A stretch of DNA of 64,000 bases, taken from positions 1,736,001 through 1,800,000 of the forward strand of contig NZ_CP126084.1 of assembly GCF_030122845.1 (NCBI RefSeq). The letters run 5' to 3'. This DNA is from Paenibacillus woosongensis. GTDB lineage: Bacteria; Bacillota; Bacilli; Paenibacillales; Paenibacillaceae. Positions 5,303 through 50,309 of the stretch are shown here, one piece after another. Within the stretch, counting starts at the first letter, position 1. Each line of letters starts with the position of its first letter. Below the pieces are notes generated by a model that searched no databases, had not been told where the DNA came from, and saw only the letters and a program-made list of their open reading frames with translations. A program made the position numbers and the translations under genes.

Positions 5303-7423
5303 ATGGAAATCAGGAAAGAAGAGAAGTCTACGATCATTCAGGGCTCGCTCGGTTTGCTGGCGATGCTGGGTGTTGTTTATCTTTCAACAGCCATTGATAC
5401 TCCCGTTATCTCTGCTTCGGCCCGTCTGGCGATGTATTTGCTCGCTGGGCTGATGTATGGATCGGTGGCCTTCGCAGTCTTTGCGCAGGGCTGGATGCTA
5501 TTTACGGACAAACTGTCCAGGCAGCGTCTTTACTCTGCCGTGTTGTTTTTCATCGTCGGTACATTGGATGTGCTTCATATCGCCACTTTCGTCGGCGTTT
5601 CTTTGTTTGGTTTTATGCCTGGATATACGGTCTCCGCGTGGTTCATGTTATTGTCCCATTTGCTCGGGGCGTTAGGGATGCTGTTTATTTTCAGTGTGCC
5701 GGACAAGCAGGTGTCCATGCGCCATAAAGCGGCTGCTTTTTCAGGAGCGTCAGTTTTACTGCTAGTAGGCATCGTACTGCTGTACAAATACCAGTTTCAG
5801 CTTCCCCAGCTTCTTGGGAATCAGGCTCCCGGGACAACGAAGCAGGCGGTCTGGATTGTCGTGCCCTTTCTGTATACGCTCGGAATATTCGCGATATTGT
5901 ACCGGTACCGGAAGGAGCGTCCGCCAGCGGCATTAACAGTCGTCTGTGCGCTTTTATTTATGATGATCGGGCATATATTACTGACGGCAGCGGAGCCCTT
6001 CGATATTGGAATTGCCCATGTTGCCGGGGAATGGTTTACGGCTATTTCCTATTATTACGTGCTAAAAGGGGTCTACCGCCTAACGATTGAGGAGCCGTTT
6101 CGCGGCCAACAGCTTGCGGAGGCTCAAATGATGCATATGGCCTATCACGATGATTTGACGAATCTGCCTAATCTTCGACGGCTGAAGGAACGTCTGGCCG
6201 GCCATCTGGTGCCAGAAGGCAGGACGGGGCTTTACACAGGAGTGGCCGTCCTGAACATCAATCGCTTCAAGGCGATTAATGATGCTTTTGGATATCGAGC
6301 GGGCGACAAGCTGCTAACCGATTTGGGAGCGCGGGTGAGCCGGCGTTGTTTACCAGAGGAGGGCGTCTACCGTTTGGGAGAAGACGAATTTGCGGTCACG
6401 ATCCCGGAATATTCGGATCCGCGGGCGATCGAGATCAGGGCATTGCAGCTGCTTAAATCGATTCACCCGGCGGTAACAATTGAAAATACCGAGTATCATA
6501 TTTCCCTGAGCATGGGGCTCTCCATATATCCCCTTGACGGCCAAAACGTAGAGCAAATCATTCAAAATGCCGATATGGCTGTACATAATGGGAAGGAACA
6601 GGGACTGGAATTCGTCCGCTATACGGCTGCGATCAAGAATCAGACCCAATCCCGAATAGAGCTGGAGAACGATATGCGGAAAGGCTTGGAGCGGGAGGAA
6701 TTTTTCCTGGAATTTCAGCCTCAGGTCAGCCTCGACAGCGGCCGGGTGGTTGGCATGGAGGCTCTGGTGCGCTGGAACCATCCACGCCGGGGAGTGCTTT
6801 CGCCGGGCGAGTTCATTCCGGTCGCTGAAGACAGCGGACTGATCGTTCCACTGGGGGAATGGGTGCTGCGTACCGCTTGCAGCTATAATAAGAGGTGGCA
6901 GGACGATGGTTATACCCCGATATGCGTGTCCGTCAACTTATCCATGCGGCAATTCCGCCAGCACAATTTGGCCGATAAAGTCGATTGCATTTTGCAGGAG
7001 GTCGGTCTGGAAGCAAAATATTTGGAGCTGGAGGTGACGGAAAGCATGACATTTGACATCGACACGGCTTTTGAGCAGCTTCAGAGGCTGAAGCGGCTAG
7101 GTGTTCACATTAGCATCGACGATTTCGGCACGGGATACAGCTCTCTTTACTATTTGAAGACGCTGCCGATCGATCGTCTCAAAATCGATCGTTCCTTCGT
7201 CAAGGAGGTTATGATGGACGGAAGCGGAGCGGCTATCGTCTCCACCATTACGATGATGGCGCATCATCTGCAGCTGAAAGTCACAGCTGAAGGGGTCGAG
7301 AACGAGGAGCAGCTTGAATTTCTCAAGCTTCAGAATTGCCATGAGGGGCAAGGTTATTTGTTCAGCAAGCCGGTGCCAGCAGGGTTGTTTGAGCGCCGTT
7401 TTCTCACCCGTATTGCCGGATAG
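5303..7423 (+). CDS. Membrane-bound GGDEF/EAL cyclic-di-GMP protein
   Basis: About 706 residues. Residues 1-260 hold seven or eight hydrophobic segments forming an integral membrane sensor of the MASE type. A diguanylate cyclase domain follows (starts DDLTNLPN; signature near residue 358), then an EAL phosphodiesterase domain. The cyclase signature reads GEDEF rather than GGDEF, so synthesis activity is uncertain. The EAL domain looks complete: MEALVRW, NHP, the DDFGTGYSSL loop, IDRSFV and AEGVE are present. Net activity is therefore probably hydrolysis of c-di-GMP, with the GEDEF domain regulatory. The frame opens at a TTG (5294), but GGGGG directly before it fits the ATG at 5303 by spacing. 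Confidence 0.88.
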   Translation: MEIRKEEKSTIIQGSLGLLAMLGVVYLSTAIDTPVISASARLAMYLLAGLMYGSVAFAVFAQGWMLFTDKLSRQRLYSAVLFFIVGTLDVLHIATFVGVSLFGFMPGYTVSAWFMLLSHLLGALGMLFIFSVPDKQVSMRHKAAAFSGASVLLLVGIVLLYKYQFQLPQLLGNQAPGTTKQAVWIVVPFLYTLGIFAILYRYRKERPPAALTVVCALLFMMIGHILLTAAEPFDIGIAHVAGEWFTAISYYYVLKGVYRLTIEEPFRGQQLAEAQMMHMAYHDDLTNLPNLRRLKERLAGHLVPEGRTGLYTGVAVLNINRFKAINDAFGYRAGDKLLTDLGARVSRRCLPEEGVYRLGEDEFAVTIPEYSDPRAIEIRALQLLKSIHPAVTIENTEYHISLSMGLSIYPLDGQNVEQIIQNADMAVHNGKEQGLEFVRYTAAIKNQTQSRIELENDMRKGLEREEFFLEFQPQVSLDSGRVVGMEALVRWNHPRRGVLSPGEFIPVAEDSGLIVPLGEWVLRTACSYNKRWQDDGYTPICVSVNLSMRQFRQHNLADKVDCILQEVGLEAKYLELEVTESMTFDIDTAFEQLQRLKRLGVHISIDDFGTGYSSLYYLKTLPIDRLKIDRSFVKEVMMDGSGAAIVSTITMMAHHLQLKVTAEGVENEEQLEFLKLQNCHEGQGYLFSKPVPAGLFERRFLTRIAG

Positions 7424-7487
7424 GGCAATCTTCATTGTTATAACAAAGTTGCGCAGGGTGCGCGGACCAATTGTAATAAATTAGCTG

Positions 7488-7516
7488 TTGCATTGATGGA
7501 ACAGAAGTGGTATATT
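7488..7516 (+). promoter_or_regulatory. Promoter of the tRNA-Pro/tRNA-Gly unit
   Basis: TTGCAT at 7488-7493 and TATATT at 7511-7516 with a 17-base spacer, about 40 bases before tRNA-Pro. Confidence 0.7.
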
Positions 7517-7555
7517 TATTTTTGTCTTCACGAGCAGCTTGCTCGATTGAAGCCT

Positions 7556-7632
7556 CGGGACGTAGCTCAGCTTGGTAGAGCACCTGGTTTGGGACCAGGG
7601 GGTCGCATGTTCAAATCGTGTCGTCCCGACCA
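7556..7632 (+). tRNA. tRNA-Pro (anticodon TGG)
   Basis: The acceptor stem CGGGACG pairs with CGTCCCG; discriminator A and an encoded CCA follow. The anticodon arm is CCTGG-TTTGGGA-CCAGG, giving TGG. The T arm and D arm are regular. This is the host copy; the prophage carries a second tRNA-Pro(TGG) at 26103. Confidence 0.96.
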
Positions 7633-7701
7633 TAATATAGTTGCCCTTGCAGAAGTAATCAGTTTTTACTGAAGCTTATCTTCACTTTTGTGGGCAGAGT
7701 T

Positions 7702-7772
7702 GCGGGTGTAGTTCAATGGTAGAACTCCAGCCTTCCAAGCTGGTAGCGTGGGTTCGATTCCCATCACCCGCT
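7702..7772 (+). tRNA. tRNA-Gly (anticodon TCC), prophage attachment gene
   Basis: The acceptor stem GCGGGTG pairs with CACCCGC, discriminator T. The anticodon arm is CCAGC-CTTCCAA-GCTGG, giving TCC. No CCA is encoded: the bases after the discriminator are TAG. The last 46 bases (7727-7772) are the attL core shared exactly with attR. At attR the same sequence is followed by CCA, so the unoccupied chromosome probably encoded CCA and the phage-derived 3' end removed it. Confidence 0.95.
7727..7772 (+). repeat. attL core (46-bp direct repeat, copy 1)
   Basis: Perfect 46-bp match to 50264-50309, starting CCAGCCTTCC and ending CACCCGCT. It covers the anticodon arm to the 3' end of tRNA-Gly. The integrase gene starts its reading away from this site about 1.3 kb inward, the usual arrangement for tRNA-integrating phages. 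Confidence 0.95.
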
Positions 7773-7791
7773 TAGTCATGTTTTCACCCTG

Positions 7792-7817
7792 AAACCCTTG
7801 CGCCACAAGGGTTTTTC
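7792..7817 (+). terminator. Terminator after tRNA-Gly (phage-derived)
   Basis: AAACCCTTG and CAAGGGTTT pair around CGCCA, followed by a T-rich run. It lies inside attL, so the phage supplies the terminator of the host tRNA unit after integration. Confidence 0.75.
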
Positions 7818-7868
7818 TTTTGCGCATTTTTCGACAAACGGCTGACGACTTTCGGCTTATGGGGCAAT

Positions 7869-9107
7869 TCATGGGGCAATTTTGAGCCTTTTAGGATTAA
7901 GGTCTTCAAGTTGATCCGCAGCAGCCCGGTTAATCTTTTCTAGCTTGTGGGTATAGATGTTAGCCGTTGTATCTAGTTTGGTGTGCCGCAATCTCTCCTG
8001 GATCGTTTTAAGGTCAGTTCCTGATTCGCGCAACAGCATCCCCGCGGTGTGTCTTAGCCCGTGCAGTTTGACATGGGGAAGTCCGTTCTTTTTAAGGAAC
8101 CGGCCCCAGGTCAGCGTCGGAGTGGTTGGATAATACATGACACCATTACCTCCATGAAATACATATTCCTTATTGCCGCCTTGCCAGTTCTTGGCGTTAA
8201 ATCTTTCCTTAAGCCATTCCTTCCGATATCTCCTTAGCTCGTCCATGTACCATTTTGGCATGGCGACCCAGCCCTCAGATTCTTCCGTTTTTACTTCGCC
8301 TTCTATCTTATTTCCCTCTTCGTCTAATGTAATCTGTTTCTCGATCCAGATTGCACATCGATCATAATCTAAATCAGGCCACTCTACGGCCAAGAATTCA
8401 CCCCGTCTGAAGCCCCCAAGCATTACCCCGGTAAAATATAGCCTCCACCCGTTAGGAAGCGCGTAGAGGGCAACCAGGAGCTTCTCAACCTCTGCTCGGT
8501 TATACGCCTGCTTCTTGGAGCGCATTTCCTTCTTCTCTTTTTTGCTTTGACTTGGACGTTTGACGCCATCCATGGGGTTCTCTTTGATTACTTTCCACTC
8601 TTTTGCATTTTCAAAAATCGAGCTTGCCGCTTTGTAGATGTTCAGTTTCGAATTTGTAGCAAGGGGCTTGCCGCTTTTCAGGTTCTTCAGATCGGCGAAC
8701 CATTCAGCTAGCTCGAGCGTTGTGATCTCATCGATCCAGCGGTCACCGAACTCGGGTATTAGCCTGGATTCAATAATACTCATGGTGTTTAAAATCGTTT
8801 TGCCACCCATGTTAGGGCCGGCATAGACTTTTTTCCAGGTCGGGATGAAATCAGCAAAGGTTACCTTGCGTTTGCTTTTACTCTTACTTCTGTTTTTCCC
8901 TTTGTTCTTGTACTCTCCGGATTTTACAAGCTCGCTCCAATCCTCTTCCTGGACGGCCAACCAAGCAGCTCTCTTCTTTTCGGATTTGGATCGCGCAATC
9001 TCTTCTGGCATTTCTACAGTAATAGATCGCTTCGGCATTTTTGCCAGTGCGGGATCCCGTTCTACGATCTTGTATTTATTGCCTCCTAGATGTTCACTCC
9101 AAGCCAT
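7869..9107 (-). CDS. int: Phage integrase (tyrosine recombinase)
   Basis: A 412-residue site-specific recombinase. A basic N-terminal arm-type region is followed by a SAM-like core-binding domain (about 85-185) and a C-terminal catalytic domain. Catalytic residues are visible: first Arg in GFRRGE (near 232), the HGLRH box (near 350), a following His in LRHTKLD, and the nucleophile Tyr in NIYTH (near 388). Located next to attL and transcribed toward it. It should integrate the phage into tRNA-Gly and, with an excisionase, excise it. A candidate excisionase-like HTH protein is at 11096. Confidence 0.96.
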   Translation of the reverse strand: MAWSEHLGGNKYKIVERDPALAKMPKRSITVEMPEEIARSKSEKKRAAWLAVQEEDWSELVKSGEYKNKGKNRSKSKSKRKVTFADFIPTWKKVYAGPNMGGKTILNTMSIIESRLIPEFGDRWIDEITTLELAEWFADLKNLKSGKPLATNSKLNIYKAASSIFENAKEWKVIKENPMDGVKRPSQSKKEKKEMRSKKQAYNRAEVEKLLVALYALPNGWRLYFTGVMLGGFRRGEFLAVEWPDLDYDRCAIWIEKQITLDEEGNKIEGEVKTEESEGWVAMPKWYMDELRRYRKEWLKERFNAKNWQGGNKEYVFHGGNGVMYYPTTPTLTWGRFLKKNGLPHVKLHGLRHTAGMLLRESGTDLKTIQERLRHTKLDTTANIYTHKLEKINRAAADQLEDLNPKRLKIAP

Positions 9108-9182
9108 TTTGTAACATCACTCCAAACGTATGTTCTATTTTTGGGTATATTTAAACAGCCCTTAGGCTGGAAAGCGCATAGG

Positions 9183-9593
9183 TTAGTAGAAAATATGAAA
9201 TTCTTCTGGAATGCCGCAGCGTTTCAGGAAGCTCCCCTTTGTTTCCTCGATCTCGGGCTTTGTATCTCCGATCATTAGGTGCAGGGCAAAGCGATTAGCC
9301 TCACGCTCTATTCTATCTACTGAAAAAAGGGTGTTTCTCCTTAGGAACGGAGTGTTTATCCCTTGGTGTAGAAAATGGTGTGCGAGCTCATGCGAAAGGG
9401 CAAATATAGCGGCGAACCCCTCTAGGCGGCTGTTAACATGGATAACCGGGATTCGCCTTATGCAGGTGTAGTACCCCCAGATATTTTCCCCTAAATCTTC
9501 GTACAGAACCATTAAATTAGACTCAGCTGCTATTCGTGTTGGATTGTTGGTTCCGTGGGCTTTGATCAGTCTCTTAGAAAGTAAAATTTCCAT
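9183..9593 (-). CDS. ImmA/IrrE-family metallopeptidase
   Basis: A 136-residue zinc protease with the HELAH motif (His68, Glu69, His72) and a downstream EREANRFA segment that supplies the third ligand. In ICEBs1, ImmA cleaves the repressor ImmR to trigger induction. Here the gene follows the XRE repressor gene by 18 bases on the same strand, so it most likely inactivates that repressor after damage. Small and complete. Confidence 0.92.
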   Translation of the reverse strand: MEILLSKRLIKAHGTNNPTRIAAESNLMVLYEDLGENIWGYYTCIRRIPVIHVNSRLEGFAAIFALSHELAHHFLHQGINTPFLRRNTLFSVDRIEREANRFALHLMIGDTKPEIEETKGSFLKRCGIPEEFHIFY

Positions 9594-9611
9594 TCGATAA
9601 CCCCCGGAAGG

Positions 9612-10037
9612 CTATTTTCTGAATTTCTTAGGCGTGAACTTCTTCTTTGCCATCTCTTTACTCATCCTCAAAGTATTCTCTAACGAAATACGCAGCAACT
9701 CGCGATCCTCGTCACTCATAGGCTCTCCCATGAATGCCATCGACGATCCGCTCTCGAGTTCTTCCATCATGCGCTCCAGGTCTTTGGCTATGTCACGTTC
9801 GTCTTTGTCTGTAAGGGCATAGTAGGGCTGTGACGTTTCTTTCTCATCAGTGCGCCCAAGAAGGTAATCTGTGGAGACTTTAAAGTAGTCGGCGACTTTT
9901 ATTAGGTTACTTCCTTTAGGAATGTTCTTTTTCCATGAATACAGTGTGTTTTTGCTCAAATCGAGATTTTCTTCGAGTTTGTTGACTGAAATTCCTTGCG
10001 AATCGCAAAGCTCTTTTAGGCGATCAAAAGCCGTCAT
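9612..10037 (-). CDS. XRE-family phage repressor
   Basis: 141 residues. A helix-turn-helix domain occupies residues 4-60 (GISVNKLEENLDLSKN, then TLYSWKK, then DYFKVSTDYLLGR). A helical acidic linker and a basic C-terminal tail follow. Role inferred: CI-like repressor keeping lysogeny, with the neighbouring ImmA-type protease as anti-repressor. Likely operators are the AAAACTAG palindromes at 10070, 10101 and 10258. The ATG follows GGAAATG on the minus strand. Confidence 0.92.
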   Translation of the reverse strand: MTAFDRLKELCDSQGISVNKLEENLDLSKNTLYSWKKNIPKGSNLIKVADYFKVSTDYLLGRTDEKETSQPYYALTDKDERDIAKDLERMMEELESGSSMAFMGEPMSDEDRELLRISLENTLRMSKEMAKKKFTPKKFRK

Positions 10038-10069: not shown

Positions 10070-10083
10070 TAAAACTAGATTTA
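10070..10083. promoter_or_regulatory. Operator O1 (imperfect palindrome)
   Basis: TAAAACTAGATTTA differs by one base from the perfect palindrome TAAAACTAGTTTTA found twice more in this intergenic region. It lies 32 bases upstream of the repressor start. Confidence 0.7.
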
Positions 10084-10092
10084 AAAAAATCA

Positions 10093-10121
10093 TTGACAAC
10101 TAAAACTAGTTTTAATATACT
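10093..10121 (+). promoter_or_regulatory. Rightward promoter with operator O2 in its spacer
   Basis: TTGACA (10093-10098), 17-base spacer, TATACT (10116-10121). The perfect 14-bp palindrome O2 (10101-10114) fills the spacer, so a bound repressor would block polymerase. The start would be near 10128, giving a leader of about 200 bases before the Cro-like gene. Confidence 0.75.
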
Positions 10122-10129
10122 CTAGGTAA

Positions 10130-10143
10130 GCTATTTGATTAGC
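10130..10143. repeat. 14-bp inverted repeat, left arm
   Basis: GCTATTTGATTAGC is the exact reverse complement of 10290-10303. The two arms bracket the middle of the lysogeny switch, 146 bases apart. Could be a second regulator site (for example the Cro-like protein) or a structural element. Confidence 0.7.
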
Positions 10144-10253
10144 CAAAGAAGACAATAAAAAATACGACCTAATAAATACAATTTTCGAAGCTGGGGAGCG
10201 GACAAAATGTATTGTGTCAGGCTTTTTTTAAAGTCTTATTTAGCTATGCCTAT

Positions 10254-10282
10254 ATATTAAAACTAGTTTTAATATTTGTCAA
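10254..10282 (-). promoter_or_regulatory. Leftward promoter with operator O3 in its spacer
   Basis: On the minus strand TTGACA (10282-10277), 17-base spacer, TAATAT (10259-10254). A 22-bp perfect palindrome centred at 10264/10265 contains the 14-bp operator O3 (10258-10271). It would drive the repressor, protease and perhaps integrase genes with a leader of about 210 bases. Confidence 0.7.
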
Positions 10283-11380: not shown

Positions 11381-11578
11381 ATGAGTAAAGTACTCGACTT
11401 GGCTTCAAACGAAGTAATCGACATTTGCGCGGATCCCGATTGTAACGCTGAAATCTTCTTCGGCCAATCGGTCTGGAAGAGAGGCCACGATCTGATTTGC
11501 TCAACAGATTGCTTGCTTCGGGTGCTGGGGGCTAAAACGGTGATTGCGGGGAGGGAGGGATCAGTTAAAAATGAGTAG
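11381..11578 (+). CDS. Small zinc-finger-like phage protein
   Basis: 65 residues with four cysteines arranged CADPDC and CSTDC, a likely zinc-binding pair separated by about 24 residues. Follows the previous gene by six bases and overlaps the methylase start by eight, so it is translationally coupled. Function unknown. Confidence 0.7.
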   Translation: MSKVLDLASNEVIDICADPDCNAEIFFGQSVWKRGHDLICSTDCLLRVLGAKTVIAGREGSVKNE

Positions 11579-12449
11579 CCCACTTCTATGGTTCGGCGGT
11601 AAAGGCGTGGTTGCCAAGAAACACATTATCCCATTTTTACCTAAACACCGTTTCTATCGGGAACCTTGCGTAGGCGGCTGCCATGTTATAGCTCAAAAAA
11701 GTAGGGCAGCCCATGAGGTTGTAAACGACGTTGACGGAAACCTTGTGAATTTTCTCTTAGAAGTAAGACGGGATCCGGAATTATTTACTTACGAGGCTTT
11801 ACGGTTACCGTATTCAAGACTCCTTTACGATAAATTTCGTCAGGAACCTTGGCCGGACGATCCTTTCCAGCGCGCTGTGAGGTGGTTCTATCTGAATCGA
11901 TCAGGCATAAATGCCGGCAATGCTGAGGAAGTGCCAACTACTGGCTGGCGGCATAGCAATTCATCTAATCAAAATCCAGCTCAGGGTTACGCAAGCGCAT
12001 GTAATCGGATTATTGATTTTGCAGCTAGGATGTCAGGTGTGATGATTGAGTGCATGAGCTTTCATTATTTTATTCCGAAGTATGATAACCCCGGTGCTGT
12101 TTGGTACGTCGATCCTCCTTATGTTGGGAGAGAGAGACGTTACGCAGGAAACTGGACGATGGATCACCATGAGGAGTTGGCAGCACTGCTCAACAACACA
12201 AAAGGATTTGTCATTCTCTCCTATTACGATCATCCAATTCTTGAAAACTTATATCCTGGTTGGCATAGAAGATCGTTTAGTAATCCGAAGCAGGTGACGG
12301 TAACTGGAAGGGATTCGAAGGCAACTGAGTTATTGATAATGAATTTTGACCCCGAGAAGGAGGTGAACAAGACAAATGAACGTAACACGCGATGTCTGGC
12401 TGGAACTGACAAAGGACGAGCGCATGGTATGCCTGCGGTACGCCGCTAG
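11571..12449 (+). CDS. Dam-type DNA adenine methyltransferase
   Basis: About 292 residues, D12 class of N6-adenine methyltransferases. The AdoMet motif FGGKG is at residues 8-12 and the catalytic DPPY at about residues 180-183, preceded by WYVDPPY. The length matches the Dam family. Target sequence is unknown; GATC is the common target of the class but cannot be assumed. A lone methylase without a restriction gene suggests protection from host restriction or regulation of phage transcription or replication. ATG at 11571 overlaps the upstream stop; the 3' end overlaps the next small gene by 74 bases. Confidence 0.9.
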   Translation: MSSPLLWFGGKGVVAKKHIIPFLPKHRFYREPCVGGCHVIAQKSRAAHEVVNDVDGNLVNFLLEVRRDPELFTYEALRLPYSRLLYDKFRQEPWPDDPFQRAVRWFYLNRSGINAGNAEEVPTTGWRHSNSSNQNPAQGYASACNRIIDFAARMSGVMIECMSFHYFIPKYDNPGAVWYVDPPYVGRERRYAGNWTMDHHEELAALLNNTKGFVILSYYDHPILENLYPGWHRRSFSNPKQVTVTGRDSKATELLIMNFDPEKEVNKTNERNTRCLAGTDKGRAHGMPAVRR

Positions 12450-22928: not shown

Positions 22929-23407
22929 GTAAGATCAAGGTCACCTGCCTTTGGTGCGGAAAGGAAATTTTAAGGTACCCGAGCCAGGTTAAAGAGCGAA
23001 ACTTTTGTAGTAAGCAGTGCAAAGATTGCCACGTCACCAAAAAGTTGAACCCGGAAGGCTACGTACGCAACTTTAATGCGCACCATTTACCGGAACTAAA
23101 CCGCAGGCTTAACCCGACGCGTATGAACGACGAAACAAGAAAGAAGCTTAGGTTAGCAAGGTTGGACACAGGAAGCGGCAAATCATACGAAAAATACTAT
23201 GGACGGCATTTACATCGAATTCTGGCGGAGCAGAAATTAGGCCGGAAATTAAAGCCTGGAGAAGTGGTTCACCACATCAACGGTAATAGACGAGATAACA
23301 GACTTGAGAATTTAATGGTGTTTCCATCCCAAGAAGAACACGCCGCATGGCACGCAGCTGAGGCGAGACTCCTCAAAGGGAGCAAAGGAGGTGGTGCCGA
23401 TGAATAA
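22925..23407 (+). CDS. HNH endonuclease
   Basis: 160 residues. The N-terminus has a CLWC...CSKQC zinc ribbon. The C-terminus has an HNH core: VVHHINGNRRDNRLENL followed by H residues in EEHAAWH. GTG start overlaps the previous stop (GTGA). Typical of free-standing HNH homing-type nucleases inserted in phage operons. It lies immediately before the disrupted SNF2 gene. Confidence 0.9.
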   Translation: MSKIKVTCLWCGKEILRYPSQVKERNFCSKQCKDCHVTKKLNPEGYVRNFNAHHLPELNRRLNPTRMNDETRKKLRLARLDTGSGKSYEKYYGRHLHRILAEQKLGRKLKPGEVVHHINGNRRDNRLENLMVFPSQEEHAAWHAAEARLLKGSKGGGADE

Positions 23408-24774
23408 GTTCATACCCCATAACTACCAGAAGTATTGCATTAATCGCTTGCTGGCAGACGAGGCCCTAGGTCTATTTTTGGATATGGGCTTAGGTTAGCA
23501 AAACTGTCATCACCTTAACGGCAGTCAATGACTTAAAGTATAACCGCTTTGCGATTAGGCGCTGCCTGGTTGTAGCCCCGAAAAAGGTTGCAGAGGCAAC
23601 TTGGACAAACGAAGCAGCCAAATGGCAGCACCTTAAGCATCTACGGATCATACCTGTACTGGGGGCGCAGCAGAAGCGGATCCGCGCGCTGAACACGCCG
23701 GGGGATATATGGGTCATTAGCCGGGATAATCTGGCCTGGCTCGTAGAGCATTACCGCAACGCCTGGCCGTTTGACATGGTTGTTCTGGACGAGCTCTCTA
23801 GCTTCAAGAATCACCAAGCGAAGCGATTCAAGGTGTTAACCTGGGTGCGGCCGCACATTAAGCGTATCGTAGGGCTGACCGGTACACCAGCGCCGAACGG
23901 GCTACTTGATTTATGGGCGCAGGTGAATCTGTTGGACCAAGGCAAACGGCTTGAAAAACTTATTACACATTACCGGACAAAGTATTTTGAAAAGAATTAC
24001 AACGGCTACGGCTATACGGCCAAGCCAGGAGCGGATGACGCAATCCAGCGCAAGATAGCAGACATTTGCATCAGCATGAAAGCCGAGGATTACTTGGAGC
24101 TGCCGGACGCAATCACGAACATTATTCCGGTCGTACTGGAGGATAAAGCCCTGAAGCAGTACAAGCAGATGGAGAAAGAGCTGCTGCTGGAGATTGACGA
24201 CGATACGGAGATAACCGCAACTAGTGCGGCCGTTCTAACTGGAAAGCTGTTGCAGCTTTGTAATGGTGCTTTGTATGACGGGGAACGTAATGTACATGAG
24301 ATTCATAATTGCAAGATTGAGGCGTTCATGGAGCTGATCGAGCAGCTGAACGGAAAGCCGGCGTTAGTATTTTATAGCTATCAGCATGACCGGGACCGGA
24401 TCCTAAAGGCTCTTGAAAAGTCTGGCCTTCGGATCCGGGAGCTTAAAACCCCGCAGGATCAACTTGACTGGAATACCGGCAAGATCGATATTCTTTTAGC
24501 GCATCCGGCCAGTGCGGCCTACGGGCTCAATCTTCAAGACGGCGGTAACCATGTCGTGTGGTTCAGCTTACCGTGGAGCCTGGAACTATACGAGCAGGCG
24601 AACAAGCGGCTGCACAGGCAAGGCCAAAAGCAAAAAGTTATTCTGCATCACCTGGTTGTCCAGGACGGCGCTGACGAGGATGTCATGGCTGCACTAGAAG
24701 CGAAGGCGACGACCCAGGAGAAATTGCTTAACGCTTTGAAGGTGAGAGCGGAGCAAATCCGGAAAGGAGCTTGA
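23400..24774 (+). pseudogene. SNF2-family helicase, disrupted in Walker A
   Basis: The first frame runs MNKFIPHNYQKYCINRLL to FLDMGLG and hits TAG at 23496-23498. Another frame resumes at 23500 with KTVITLTAV and continues without stop to 24774. Together they make a normal SNF2-type ATPase: motif II VLDELSS, motif III GLTGTPAPN, and motif VI region KRLHRQGQ. Comparison with the expected MGLGKT shows four extra bases within 23490-23499. The gene start has AAAGGAGGTGG upstream. Without repair the protein loses its ATP-binding loop. The downstream part has an internal ATG at 23776 but would lack the P-loop. Confidence 0.88.
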
Positions 24775-26015: not shown

Positions 26016-26099
26016 ATCCCTGTAGCTTAGTGGGAAAGCGTGAAGGCGGCCGCAATAACAGACTTCAGGTCCGGGGTTCGATTCCCCGCAGGGGTGCCA
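26016..26099 (+). tRNA. tRNA-like gene with a 17-nt anticodon loop
   Basis: Acceptor ATCCCTG pairs with CAGGGGT (one wobble), then G and encoded CCA. D stem GCTT/AAGC, T arm CGGGG-TTCGATT-CCCCG and a four-base variable loop are regular. The anticodon stem TGAAG/CTTCA is perfect, but its loop is GCGGCCGCAATAACAGA, 17 bases rather than 7. No anticodon can be assigned. Without the ten extra bases the length would be normal. Either an inactivated tRNA or a tRNA mimic. It is followed three bases later by tRNA-Pro. Confidence 0.7.
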
Positions 26100-26102
26100 T
26101 AA

Positions 26103-26176
26103 CCGGATGTAGTGTAGCCAGGTAGCACGCTTGCCTTGGGAGCAAGTAGTCGCAGGTTCAAATCCTGCCATTCGGA
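26103..26176 (+). tRNA. Phage tRNA-Pro (anticodon TGG)
   Basis: Acceptor CCGGATG/CATTCGG (one G-U), discriminator A, no encoded CCA. D stem GTGT/GCAC; anticodon arm CTTGC-CTTGGGA-GCAAG gives TGG; T arm GCAGG-TTCAAAT-CCTGC. It duplicates the host isoacceptor at 7556 but is clearly a different sequence. Confidence 0.93.
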
Positions 26177-26207: not shown

Positions 26208-26235
26208 GCCGCTTCCTTGTGAGGCGGCGTTTTTA
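26208..26235 (+). terminator. Terminator after the tRNA pair
   Basis: GCCGCTTC pairs with GAGGCGGC (one wobble) around CTTGT, then GTTTTTATT. Forms the left boundary of the two-gene cassette. Confidence 0.85.
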
Positions 26236-26274
26236 TTAAACAATTAAAGGATTTTTCCTAATTAGTAGATATAA

Positions 26275-26303
26275 TTCATAAAACTAATTGTCTGTGATAA
26301 AAT
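26275..26303 (+). promoter_or_regulatory. Candidate promoter of the two-gene cassette
   Basis: TTCATA and TAAAAT with a 17-base spacer, ending 23 bases before the GTG start. A second TATAAT is at 26270 without a good -35. Confidence 0.45.
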
Positions 26304-26325
26304 AATCACGAAGGGGGATGAAGCG

Positions 26326-27042
26326 GTGAGTACAATTTATGTCGTATTAAAAGTATTAAAATATGTCATTATGTATATCCCCGCTGTATTTGGGGTACAT
26401 ACATGGCTCTACAGTAAATCCCCAAAATATTATTTCTTTTTCGTTAGGCTGTTCTCAAAGTGGCGCGATACTACCTGGAACGTGAATGTGGAATTTAGGC
26501 TGAACGAGCTAGGTGATTCGTATAAAAAGCTAGAAGATGTCTTGAAATTTAAATACAAAAATAGTAGCAAGTACAGTAGACCCGTTAATATGACCAACAA
26601 AAAGATGTATGATGTTGATATTTTCAAAGTGCTTGTTCAAGATGATTTCCAAGACGGGCAATTTTCGCGCAATATCATGTTTTTGAATATATCGCAATTA
26701 AACGTCACCCTTAATAAAGCAGAAGAAAAGCTTCGGGAACTTCGTGAACTGTTCAATGATATAGAGAGAGCTTTAAGACCTAATACAGTGAGTTATAACT
26801 TGGATGTTCATTTTTCAAAAGGGAAAAATCCATTTTACGGATTGATGGTGCAACGTTTGGGGAAAAATAACATTACACATTTTGAATGTTTTTTTCCTAT
26901 AAGTGCAATTGTTCCTCGATCGAAAGATGGAGGCCCAGGAAGCAATCACCAAGTGCGAGTTTTTAAAGATAAGCTAACAATCAATGAAACATCTTTCGAT
27001 ATAATAGAGGAGACTGCAAGGAGGGCTCTATTATTTAAGTGA
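26326..27042 (+). CDS. Membrane-anchored protein of unknown function (cassette gene 1)
   Basis: 238 residues. One hydrophobic segment near the N-terminus (about 5-30, VLKVLKYVIMYIPAVFGVH) suggests a membrane anchor. The remainder is basic, soluble and mixed alpha/beta, with an amphipathic helix around 145-165 (KAEEKLRELRELFNDIERAL). GTG start with AGGGGGATG upstream. Much richer in A/T than neighbouring phage genes. Bracketed by terminators with its own possible promoter. No family recognised. The next gene starts 14 bases later, so they form a unit. Confidence 0.8.
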   Translation: MSTIYVVLKVLKYVIMYIPAVFGVHTWLYSKSPKYYFFFVRLFSKWRDTTWNVNVEFRLNELGDSYKKLEDVLKFKYKNSSKYSRPVNMTNKKMYDVDIFKVLVQDDFQDGQFSRNIMFLNISQLNVTLNKAEEKLRELRELFNDIERALRPNTVSYNLDVHFSKGKNPFYGLMVQRLGKNNITHFECFFPISAIVPRSKDGGPGSNHQVRVFKDKLTINETSFDIIEETARRALLFK

Positions 27043-27056
27043 GGTGGTAAATTAAA

Positions 27057-27716
27057 TTGTTTAGTGTCAGTTGCTTTGATGTCACTCCAATTAATCAAGA
27101 ACATATTGGTGAAATTGTAAGGGAGGCTCATCATTTCCAAGAAACACAACGGGTAAATAATTTTGATGAGAACCTGGATACTTACATTTACGCTAACGAA
27201 ACCTCTCCGACTGGCTATCAAAATTACAGAATTGTTACAGATGAAGTCATTGACTACCGAGCGAGGGTAAAGGGAGAATTCATTGATCAGGTAGTTAAAC
27301 AAGGTTTATATGAAATTTACTACCATCCTGATCGTAGACGGTTGGTTGCACTTTGTCGAAAAGATGATGCTTTTAAAGCGACTGGAATTTTCGAAAATAG
27401 GTTTCCGATGCAACTAGAAAAACACAGATTTAATATCTTGGGCATCATTGATGACTCAACCGATGTCCGAAGTGCACGGTTTGATGTAAAAATAGAAACA
27501 GTAACTGGAGTTTCATTGAAAGGATCAGGAATTAATAATACTCAATATTATGCTAACATGCTTAGTTCCGGCCAGTTAACAGGTGTAATTGTCACTTACG
27601 ACCATGGAGATAAAACAGTGACCTTCAGGGTCTCGGTCGATGGGACTTTGCTTTTTTATACAAATCTTAGTGAATACGAATGTCTGGATTTTATTGACAT
27701 GCTTTATGCTATCTAA
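27057..27716 (+). CDS. Soluble protein of unknown function (cassette gene 2)
   Basis: 219 residues, no membrane segment or signal peptide. Start TTG at 27057 with GAGGTGGT about eight bases upstream. Predicted mixed alpha/beta; [20 protein letters not shown] near the N-terminus and a beta-rich second half ([20 protein letters not shown]). A/T-rich like its partner. A perfect terminator overlaps its stop codon. I do not recognise it. Arrangement (membrane plus cytosolic pair, own transcription unit, placed just before the terminase genes) fits a lysogeny-expressed accessory gene pair, possibly anti-phage defence; this is inference only. Confidence 0.8.
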
Positions 27717-27738
27717 GCACCCTAACCGGTGCTTTTTC
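27716..27738 (+). terminator. Terminator closing the two-gene cassette
   Basis: AGCACC and GGTGCT pair around CTAACC and are followed by TTTT. Confidence 0.88.
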
Positions 27739-27781
27739 TATTTTCAAAACCAACACAACTGCCGGGGGTGGTGATTATGTA

Positions 27782-50263: not shown

Positions 50264-50309
50264 CCAGCCTTCCAAGCTGGTAGCGTGGGTTCGATTCCCA
50301 TCACCCGCT
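50264..50309 (+). repeat. attR core (46-bp direct repeat, copy 2)
   Basis: Identical to 7727-7772. It is the 3' fragment of the tRNA-Gly gene, followed by CCA at 50310, the probable original 3' end of the host gene. It lacks the acceptor 5' strand and D arm and so is not a tRNA. Confidence 0.95.

Follow-up and report, generated by a model that had tools for sequence, protein, structure and literature searches.

Prophage exclusion systems of the RexAB type combine a DNA-binding RexA-like sensor with a membrane effector; once activated, they damage the membrane and the infection aborts (PMC12894663, PMC7542560). The archetype, RexAB of phage λ, counts among the classical abortive-infection systems, and what triggers it is still being worked out. 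An excess of RexA is by itself sufficient to trigger RexB (PMC12894663). Both domains of λ RexA are reported to be common to RdgC, a protein that limits RecA, and to IML3/CHL4, and RexA of λ also affects the lysis-lysogeny switch (PMC11077077). Outside λ, our reading of the literature turned up few relatives of RexAB, all from Pseudomonadota and Actinomycetota: RexABpp of the Pseudomonas putida prophage P1, Sbash gp30/31, CarolAnn gp44/43 and Butters gp30/31. All of them pair a RexA-like cytosolic protein with a membrane partner in a prophage, and for all of them the exclusion of other phages is proven (PMC12894663, PMC6426596, PMC7542560). A proven abortive-infection gene of Staphylococcus aureus prophages is pdpSau, always located downstream of the amidase gene; its product carries a single membrane helix, and the abortive infection that it brings about is accompanied by changes of the membrane (PMC10127798).

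The DNA that we analyzed, a stretch of 64,000 nucleotides from Paenibacillus woosongensis (hereafter the window), contains at 7727 a piece of a tRNA-Gly gene that is repeated at 50264 over at least 40 bp, the maximum length tested. These repeats correspond to att sites and so delimit a prophage of ~7.7-50.3 kb (7727 to ~50303), whose integrase, ImmA-like and XRE repressor genes occupy 7869-10037 on the minus strand. Inside this prophage, between two tRNA genes of the phage and the gene for the small terminase, lies the cassette described here (Table 1). In the window it lies 16 kb from the repressor and outside the immunity region.

Table 1. Features of the cassette and of the slot that it occupies (window coordinates)
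Feature	Position	Strand	Evidence and remarks
tRNA-Pro (TGG)	26103..26176	+	Flanks the cargo hot spot on its left side; ARAGORN and Rfam; precedes cargo in L047, L048, L049, L051 and L056
Intrinsic terminator, left slot border	26208..26228	+	Hairpin scan; sequence conserved in five related phages
Candidate promoter of the cassette	26275..26303	+	TTCATA, 17 nt, TGaTAAAAT extended -10; inferred
ORF1, membrane-anchored, 238 aa	26326..27042	+	phrog_19015; N-terminal hydrophobic helix 6-24; cytosolic alpha/beta domain ~48-237
ORF2, cytosolic, 219 aa	27057..27716	+	phrog_18260; RdgC/RexA-type predicted fold; TTG after GAGGTGG ribosome-binding site
Cassette intrinsic terminator	27715..27734	+	Hairpin scan
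Conserved right slot border	27742..27775	.	CAAAACCAACACAAC...GGGGGTGGTGA, immediately before TerS

A preliminary description of this DNA had portrayed the cassette as one A/T-rich unit of two genes, placed just before the terminase genes, bracketed by terminators and provided with its own candidate promoter, and our analysis bears this out. Both genes point rightward with a 14-nt gap between them, ORF1 starting with GTG and ORF2 with TTG, and TerS and TerL follow directly downstream. The G+C content over 26231-27738 is 0.357, compared to a prophage mean of 0.491 (sd 0.039) in windows of equal size, and the lowest-G+C windows of the prophage all overlap the cassette. The GC3 values tell the same (0.36 for ORF1 and 0.31 for ORF2, versus 0.58-0.63 for TerL, TerS, portal and VapE). 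When compared with the copies in loci L002, L003 and L011/L018, both genes gave a pN of 0.14-0.27 with a pS of ~0.8, which is near saturation, indicating that ORF1 and ORF2 are real proteins under strong protein-level constraint.

The terminators and the promoter are weak by scan alone, with three terminator-like hairpins found versus 1.5 expected and nine promoters versus 5.9 expected. The sequence of the left hairpin beside the tRNA-Pro is kept in related phages, however, as is the right border, and an extended -10 of the form TGNTA[A/T]AAT lies upstream of ORF1 in the window, in L002, in L018 and in the S. aureus copy, which suggests that the cassette has a vegetative promoter of its own. 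Two further motifs were considered and set aside: an operator-like site at 26279, within the candidate promoter, which might have pointed to repressor control, has three mismatches and is at chance level, and a GTGAT-N6-ATCAC palindrome at 26294 is the sole exact copy in the window, where two matches with at most one mismatch are about what chance would give.

Relatives of the small terminase are encoded by 80 viral contigs, and in a comparison across 61 loci the kilobase 5' of the terminase is the A/T-rich part (mean G+C 0.396 versus 0.461 downstream; Wilcoxon p 3e-11). What the slot contains differs from phage to phage: a DUF6731 protein with a membrane protein in L039, a SLATT-like protein in L048, other membrane proteins in L051 and L067, the candidate defence gene PDC-M30A in L061, and almost nothing in L049. 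In five of these phages (L047, L048, L049, L051 and L056) the layout is that of the window: tRNA-Pro(TGG) and a GCCGTCTCGGATCGAGGCGGC-type terminator open the slot, and the conserved CAAAACCAACACAAC...GGGGGTGGTGA closes it right before the terminase. As judged by these comparisons, the interval from tRNA-Pro and terminator to terminase is a cargo hot spot, and its conserved borders mean that the interval singled out in the preliminary description, 26208-27738, marks the slot almost exactly. The same interval in related phages is a place in which to seek new defence genes.

The preliminary description had also stated that neither protein belongs to a recognizable family. For curated families this stands: no convincing match of ORF1 or ORF2 was obtained in Pfam or NCBIfam, and no PADLOC 2.0 profile matched the two proteins of the window or those of the convergent class described below. 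Neither protein found a match in a plasmid search or, by sequence, in the PDB, and ORF1 and ORF2 are unrelated to each other. The statement fails for PHROG, where ORF2 is a direct member by sequence of phrog_18260 (E 3.9e-55) and ORF1 of phrog_19015 (E 3.7e-7), two families for which no function is recorded, and it fails as well for the fold of ORF2. Matches of both proteins to structural or lysis proteins, named beforehand as the outcome that would speak against a defence role, were not found. A match to phrog_18260 turned up in Bacteroides ihuae too, in a genome control search, and the family of ORF2 may therefore not be confined to Bacillota.

Hydropathy agrees with the proposed division into a membrane-anchored and a cytosolic protein. 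ORF1 of the window has one hydrophobic segment, at residues 6-24, followed by a soluble domain of ~190 aa, while no membrane segment was seen in ORF2. The predicted model of ORF1 (pLDDT 76, less certain than that of ORF2) shows the N-terminal hydrophobic helix followed by an alpha/beta domain. This domain matches folds of the AdoMetDC type best (Z ~8.2; Foldseek E 0.002-0.08). Phage SAM lyase and SAM-AMP lyase folds also resemble this domain weakly, unrelated alpha/beta folds are listed in the same search, and no catalytic motif was identified in ORF1. With fold similarity this weak, we do not claim an AdoMetDC-like or SAM-lyase-like enzyme.

The AlphaFold model of ORF2, built from seven sequences, has a pLDDT of 83.7 and a pTM of 0.77. 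Its top PDB match is RdgC (2owl; Foldseek E 3.8e-6), on which it superposes over 206 of its 219 residues (Z 11.7, rmsd 5.4), and CENP-L/Iml3, which are kinetochore proteins, come next (Z ~8). In a search of viral models, RdgC proteins of phages are among the named top matches. On λ RexA (8twq_B) the model superposes poorly (Z 4.8, rmsd 13.1), which would not be surprising for a RexA crystal form that is closed. At the sequence level, hhalign gave a probability of 0.1% for ORF2 and λ RexA, with a single sequence on the RexA side, and the RdgC family PF04381 matched none of seven ORF2 relatives. ORF2 is acidic overall (32 D+E versus 22 K+R). In several copies its start codon is weak or odd (TTG, ATT, GTG); the apparent ATT, a rare start, is found in the orthologs of L002 (5001) and L011 (6001) after a conserved ribosome-binding site. 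We conjecture that such starts may keep the level of ORF2 low, which would fit a need for little of this protein, given the effect of excess RexA on RexB (PMC12894663).

The two genes travel together. An ORF1 relative adjoins every ORF2 relative that has enough flanking DNA, and the pair is present in at least 11 independent Bacillota (Firmicutes) loci, those of S. aureus prophages included. Counted were the window, L002, L003, L026, L011/L018, L012/L019, S. aureus (L014-L025), L031, L029, L028 and L027; the weak matches in G641 (E 4e-4) and G1113 (E 6.5e-4) were not. The closest copies are from Paenibacillus. The preliminary description had proposed looking for the pair at other phage hot spots, and it was indeed found in several unrelated places: before the terminase in L012 and in L026 (genome G348), after the lysis genes in L011/L018, near the prophage end, as judged by gene content, in L002, and, in S. 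aureus, in the interval that separates endolysin from integrase, both in phage 29 and in several prophages (L006, L014-L025). In a second class, comprising L031, L029, L027 and L028, the genes face each other. In two members of this convergent class the pair has the XRE repressor on one side; on the other side lies a serine recombinase in L031 and ImmA in L029. With hhalign probabilities of 97.7% for ORF2 and 98.2% for ORF1, the co-directional and convergent classes are, by sequence comparison, homologous in both proteins. Their ORF1 proteins differ in hydropathy: co-directional copies show a single membrane segment and convergent ones (L031, L027, L029) show two, L029 with a third, weaker peak. 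The pair is rare and sporadic, occurring in 1 of 198 near relatives and in 3 of 399 genomes of the class, and relatives of the terminase are common by comparison (33/139). Some copies are disrupted. In L026, from a Bacillaceae-type prophage, ORF2 (11470-12166) is broken near its C-terminus, with in-frame stops and the tail in another frame, next to an intact ORF1. In L027 an insertion sequence separates the convergent genes (6684-9551), and in L028 the N-terminus of ORF1 is replaced by an apparent transposase start at the contig end (10350-10880).

Defence genes are often close to the pair. In L011 an ABC-3C set (SMEK/CTD10, MC6, DUF2326) lies immediately downstream, and a Panacea-domain gene is also carried; in L012 a putAbiC/AbiC-like membrane gene lies upstream; in L003 the pair adjoins an Mrr-type nuclease, and its neighbors in L027 are an AlbA-TIR gene and TmtA (Tiamat, E 1.6e-148). 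The S. aureus copy replaces pdpSau in the slot between amidase and integrase, with phages 29 and 53 sharing the DNA that flanks it. PdpSau resembles ORF1 in being membrane-anchored through one N-terminal helix and in sharing slot and flanks with the S. aureus pair; it differs in being an AbiP-like protein of 278 aa encoded by a single gene (PMC10127798). Homology between the two was considered and rejected, since hhalign gave a probability of 0.3% for ORF1 and PdpSau (phage 53 ORF016).

How does the pair compare with RexAB? Like RexAB of λ (8TWQ; PMC11077077), it consists of adjacent, sporadically distributed prophage genes for a cytosolic protein of the RdgC fold, predicted in the case of ORF2, and a membrane protein; placement beside the repressor, resembling cI-rexA-rexB, is seen in the two relatives L029 and L031. 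It differs in that the membrane gene comes first, in that RexA is longer (279 aa), superposes poorly in its closed form and has no detectable sequence similarity to ORF2, and in that RexB has four membrane helices, whereas ORF1 combines a cytosolic domain with one or two such helices. Four-helix membrane partners are also a feature of RexABpp, Sbash, CarolAnn and Butters, whose RexA-like proteins are longer (370-372 aa for Sbash gp30 and CarolAnn gp44) and whose hosts are Pseudomonadota and Actinomycetota rather than Bacillota. E. coli RdgC (2OWL/2OWY) shares the predicted ORF2 fold over nearly the whole length, but is a chromosomal, ring-forming protein of ~300 aa without a membrane partner, and ORF2 lacks a Pfam RdgC match. 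Because hydropathy reveals no four-helix RexB-type partner in ORF1 and similarity between the ORF2 and RexA sequences is undetectable, we do not file the pair as RexAB; by analogy, it probably works like RexAB with an unrelated membrane partner.

The two roles recognizable from fold and topology, the prophage home, the two relatives in immunity regions and the defence neighbors lead us to infer that the cassette is a module for prophage exclusion that resembles Rex, with ORF2 as the would-be sensor of phage DNA that would trigger the membrane effector ORF1, and we hold this reading to be somewhat better than an even bet. The preliminary description had likewise suggested an anti-phage sensor with a membrane effector, and the support gained here is comparative: a mobile pair in at least 11 contexts, repressor-side placement in L029 and L031, the pdpSau slot, neighbors of the ABC-3C, AbiC-like, Tiamat and Mrr types, and a predicted RdgC/RexA fold that would suit a DNA-sensing partner. 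In the proposed mechanism, soluble ORF2 would be made at a low level in the lysogen, its dimer enclosing DNA without sequence preference. Replication or recombination intermediates of an invading phage, or a phage DNA-binding protein, would change the state of ORF2, which would then engage the cytosolic alpha/beta domain of ORF1, a protein that a single helix, or two helices in convergent copies, would anchor in the membrane. ORF1 would oligomerize and permeabilize or depolarize the membrane, so that the infection aborts and the lysogen would be protected. Against such a module count the hhalign value and poor superposition obtained with RexA, the lack of four helices in ORF1, the acidity of ORF2, the location of the window pair outside the immunity region and the chance-level operator-like site in its promoter.

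Other readings fit parts of these data. The pair could be a defence module with different wiring, in which ORF1 keeps ORF2, here the effector, inactive at the membrane, or in which ORF1, through its AdoMetDC-like domain, acts by binding or producing a small molecule; we regard this as rather unlikely. Reversed roles have a proposed precedent in Butters gp30/gp31, a Rex-type pair (PMC7542560, PMC12894663), and a channel built from a single membrane helix would be unusual, but single-helix PdpSau does cause abortive infection with membrane changes (PMC10127798). For the small molecule speaks the resemblance of the ORF1 domain to the SAM-related folds listed above, and against it the weakness of those matches in a model of limited confidence, the unrelated folds among them and the lack of an identified catalytic motif. 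We consider it conceivable, though not probable, that the pair represents a defence family distinct from RexAB, found in Bacillota prophages and islands in co-directional and convergent architectures, in which an RdgC-fold DNA sensor works with a membrane-tethered, AdoMetDC-like alpha/beta domain acting as an enzyme or ligand-binding switch.

That a membrane-tethered RdgC-like protein instead controls lysogeny or recombination, by modulating RecA, SOS induction or prophage stability, seems improbable to us. The best fold match of ORF2 is to a limiter of RecA, bona fide RdgC is encoded by phages, λ RexA acts on the lysis-lysogeny switch too (PMC11077077), and the pair sits beside the repressor in L029 and L031; however, ORF2 is shorter than RdgC (219 versus ~300 aa), has a membrane protein partner wherever the flank suffices to tell, and lies in L003 and L027 in defence-rich contexts with no recognizable phage lysogeny module nearby. 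Very improbable is an ordinary A/T-rich late gene pair, such as a packaging or lysis accessory, or a decaying insertion without function. The genes do lie immediately 5' of the terminase in the direction of the late genes, and the broken ORF2 in G348 implies that ORF2 is dispensable. Yet late genes or debris would fit poorly with a pair so much rarer than the terminase, with the other cargo that related phages hold in the slot, with the pair's own terminators and conserved promoter-like element, with its quite different positions in other phages, and with the strong constraint on both proteins.

If the Rex-like reading is true, the Bacillota pair, S. aureus prophages included, would open the question of what the RdgC/RexA fold senses to study in another lineage, independent of the first. 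This lineage has a compact RdgC-fold protein and a simpler membrane partner, the fold being paired with unrelated membrane effectors, and two PHROG families without recorded function (18260 and 19015) would gain a testable one.

Several observations were made in passing. The A/T-rich two-gene unit in the pre-terminase slot of L039 (2005-3517), encoding the DUF6731 protein (Pfam E 2.4e-105) and then the membrane protein, is a candidate second system; its architecture resembles that of ORF1-ORF2, and kinship with the pair was rejected since there is no sequence signal for it. More A/T-rich cargo, mostly of uncharacterized genes, fills the tRNA-to-terminase slot of L048 (3181-3918), L051 (2306-3010), L056 (2217-3053), L060 (2380-3874) and L067 (3150-3917). 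Around the divergent immunity promoters of the window prophage (10070-10271), the palindrome TAAAACTAGTTTTA occurs three times, twice exactly and once with one mismatch, and these copies are likely the repressor operators. A tRNA-Ala-like prophage gene (26016-26099; Rfam 45 bits as tRNA) has an anticodon loop of ~17 nt instead of the usual 7 and, by eye, a five-pair stem TGAAG/CTTCA, which makes decoding doubtful. Finally, the gene for a SNF2-type helicase (23404-24774) carries a short frame-disrupting insertion near 23494, in the Walker A region, the listed ORF beginning only at the DEXX motif; at the same place in related phages, L041, L042 and L045 among them, the gene is intact.
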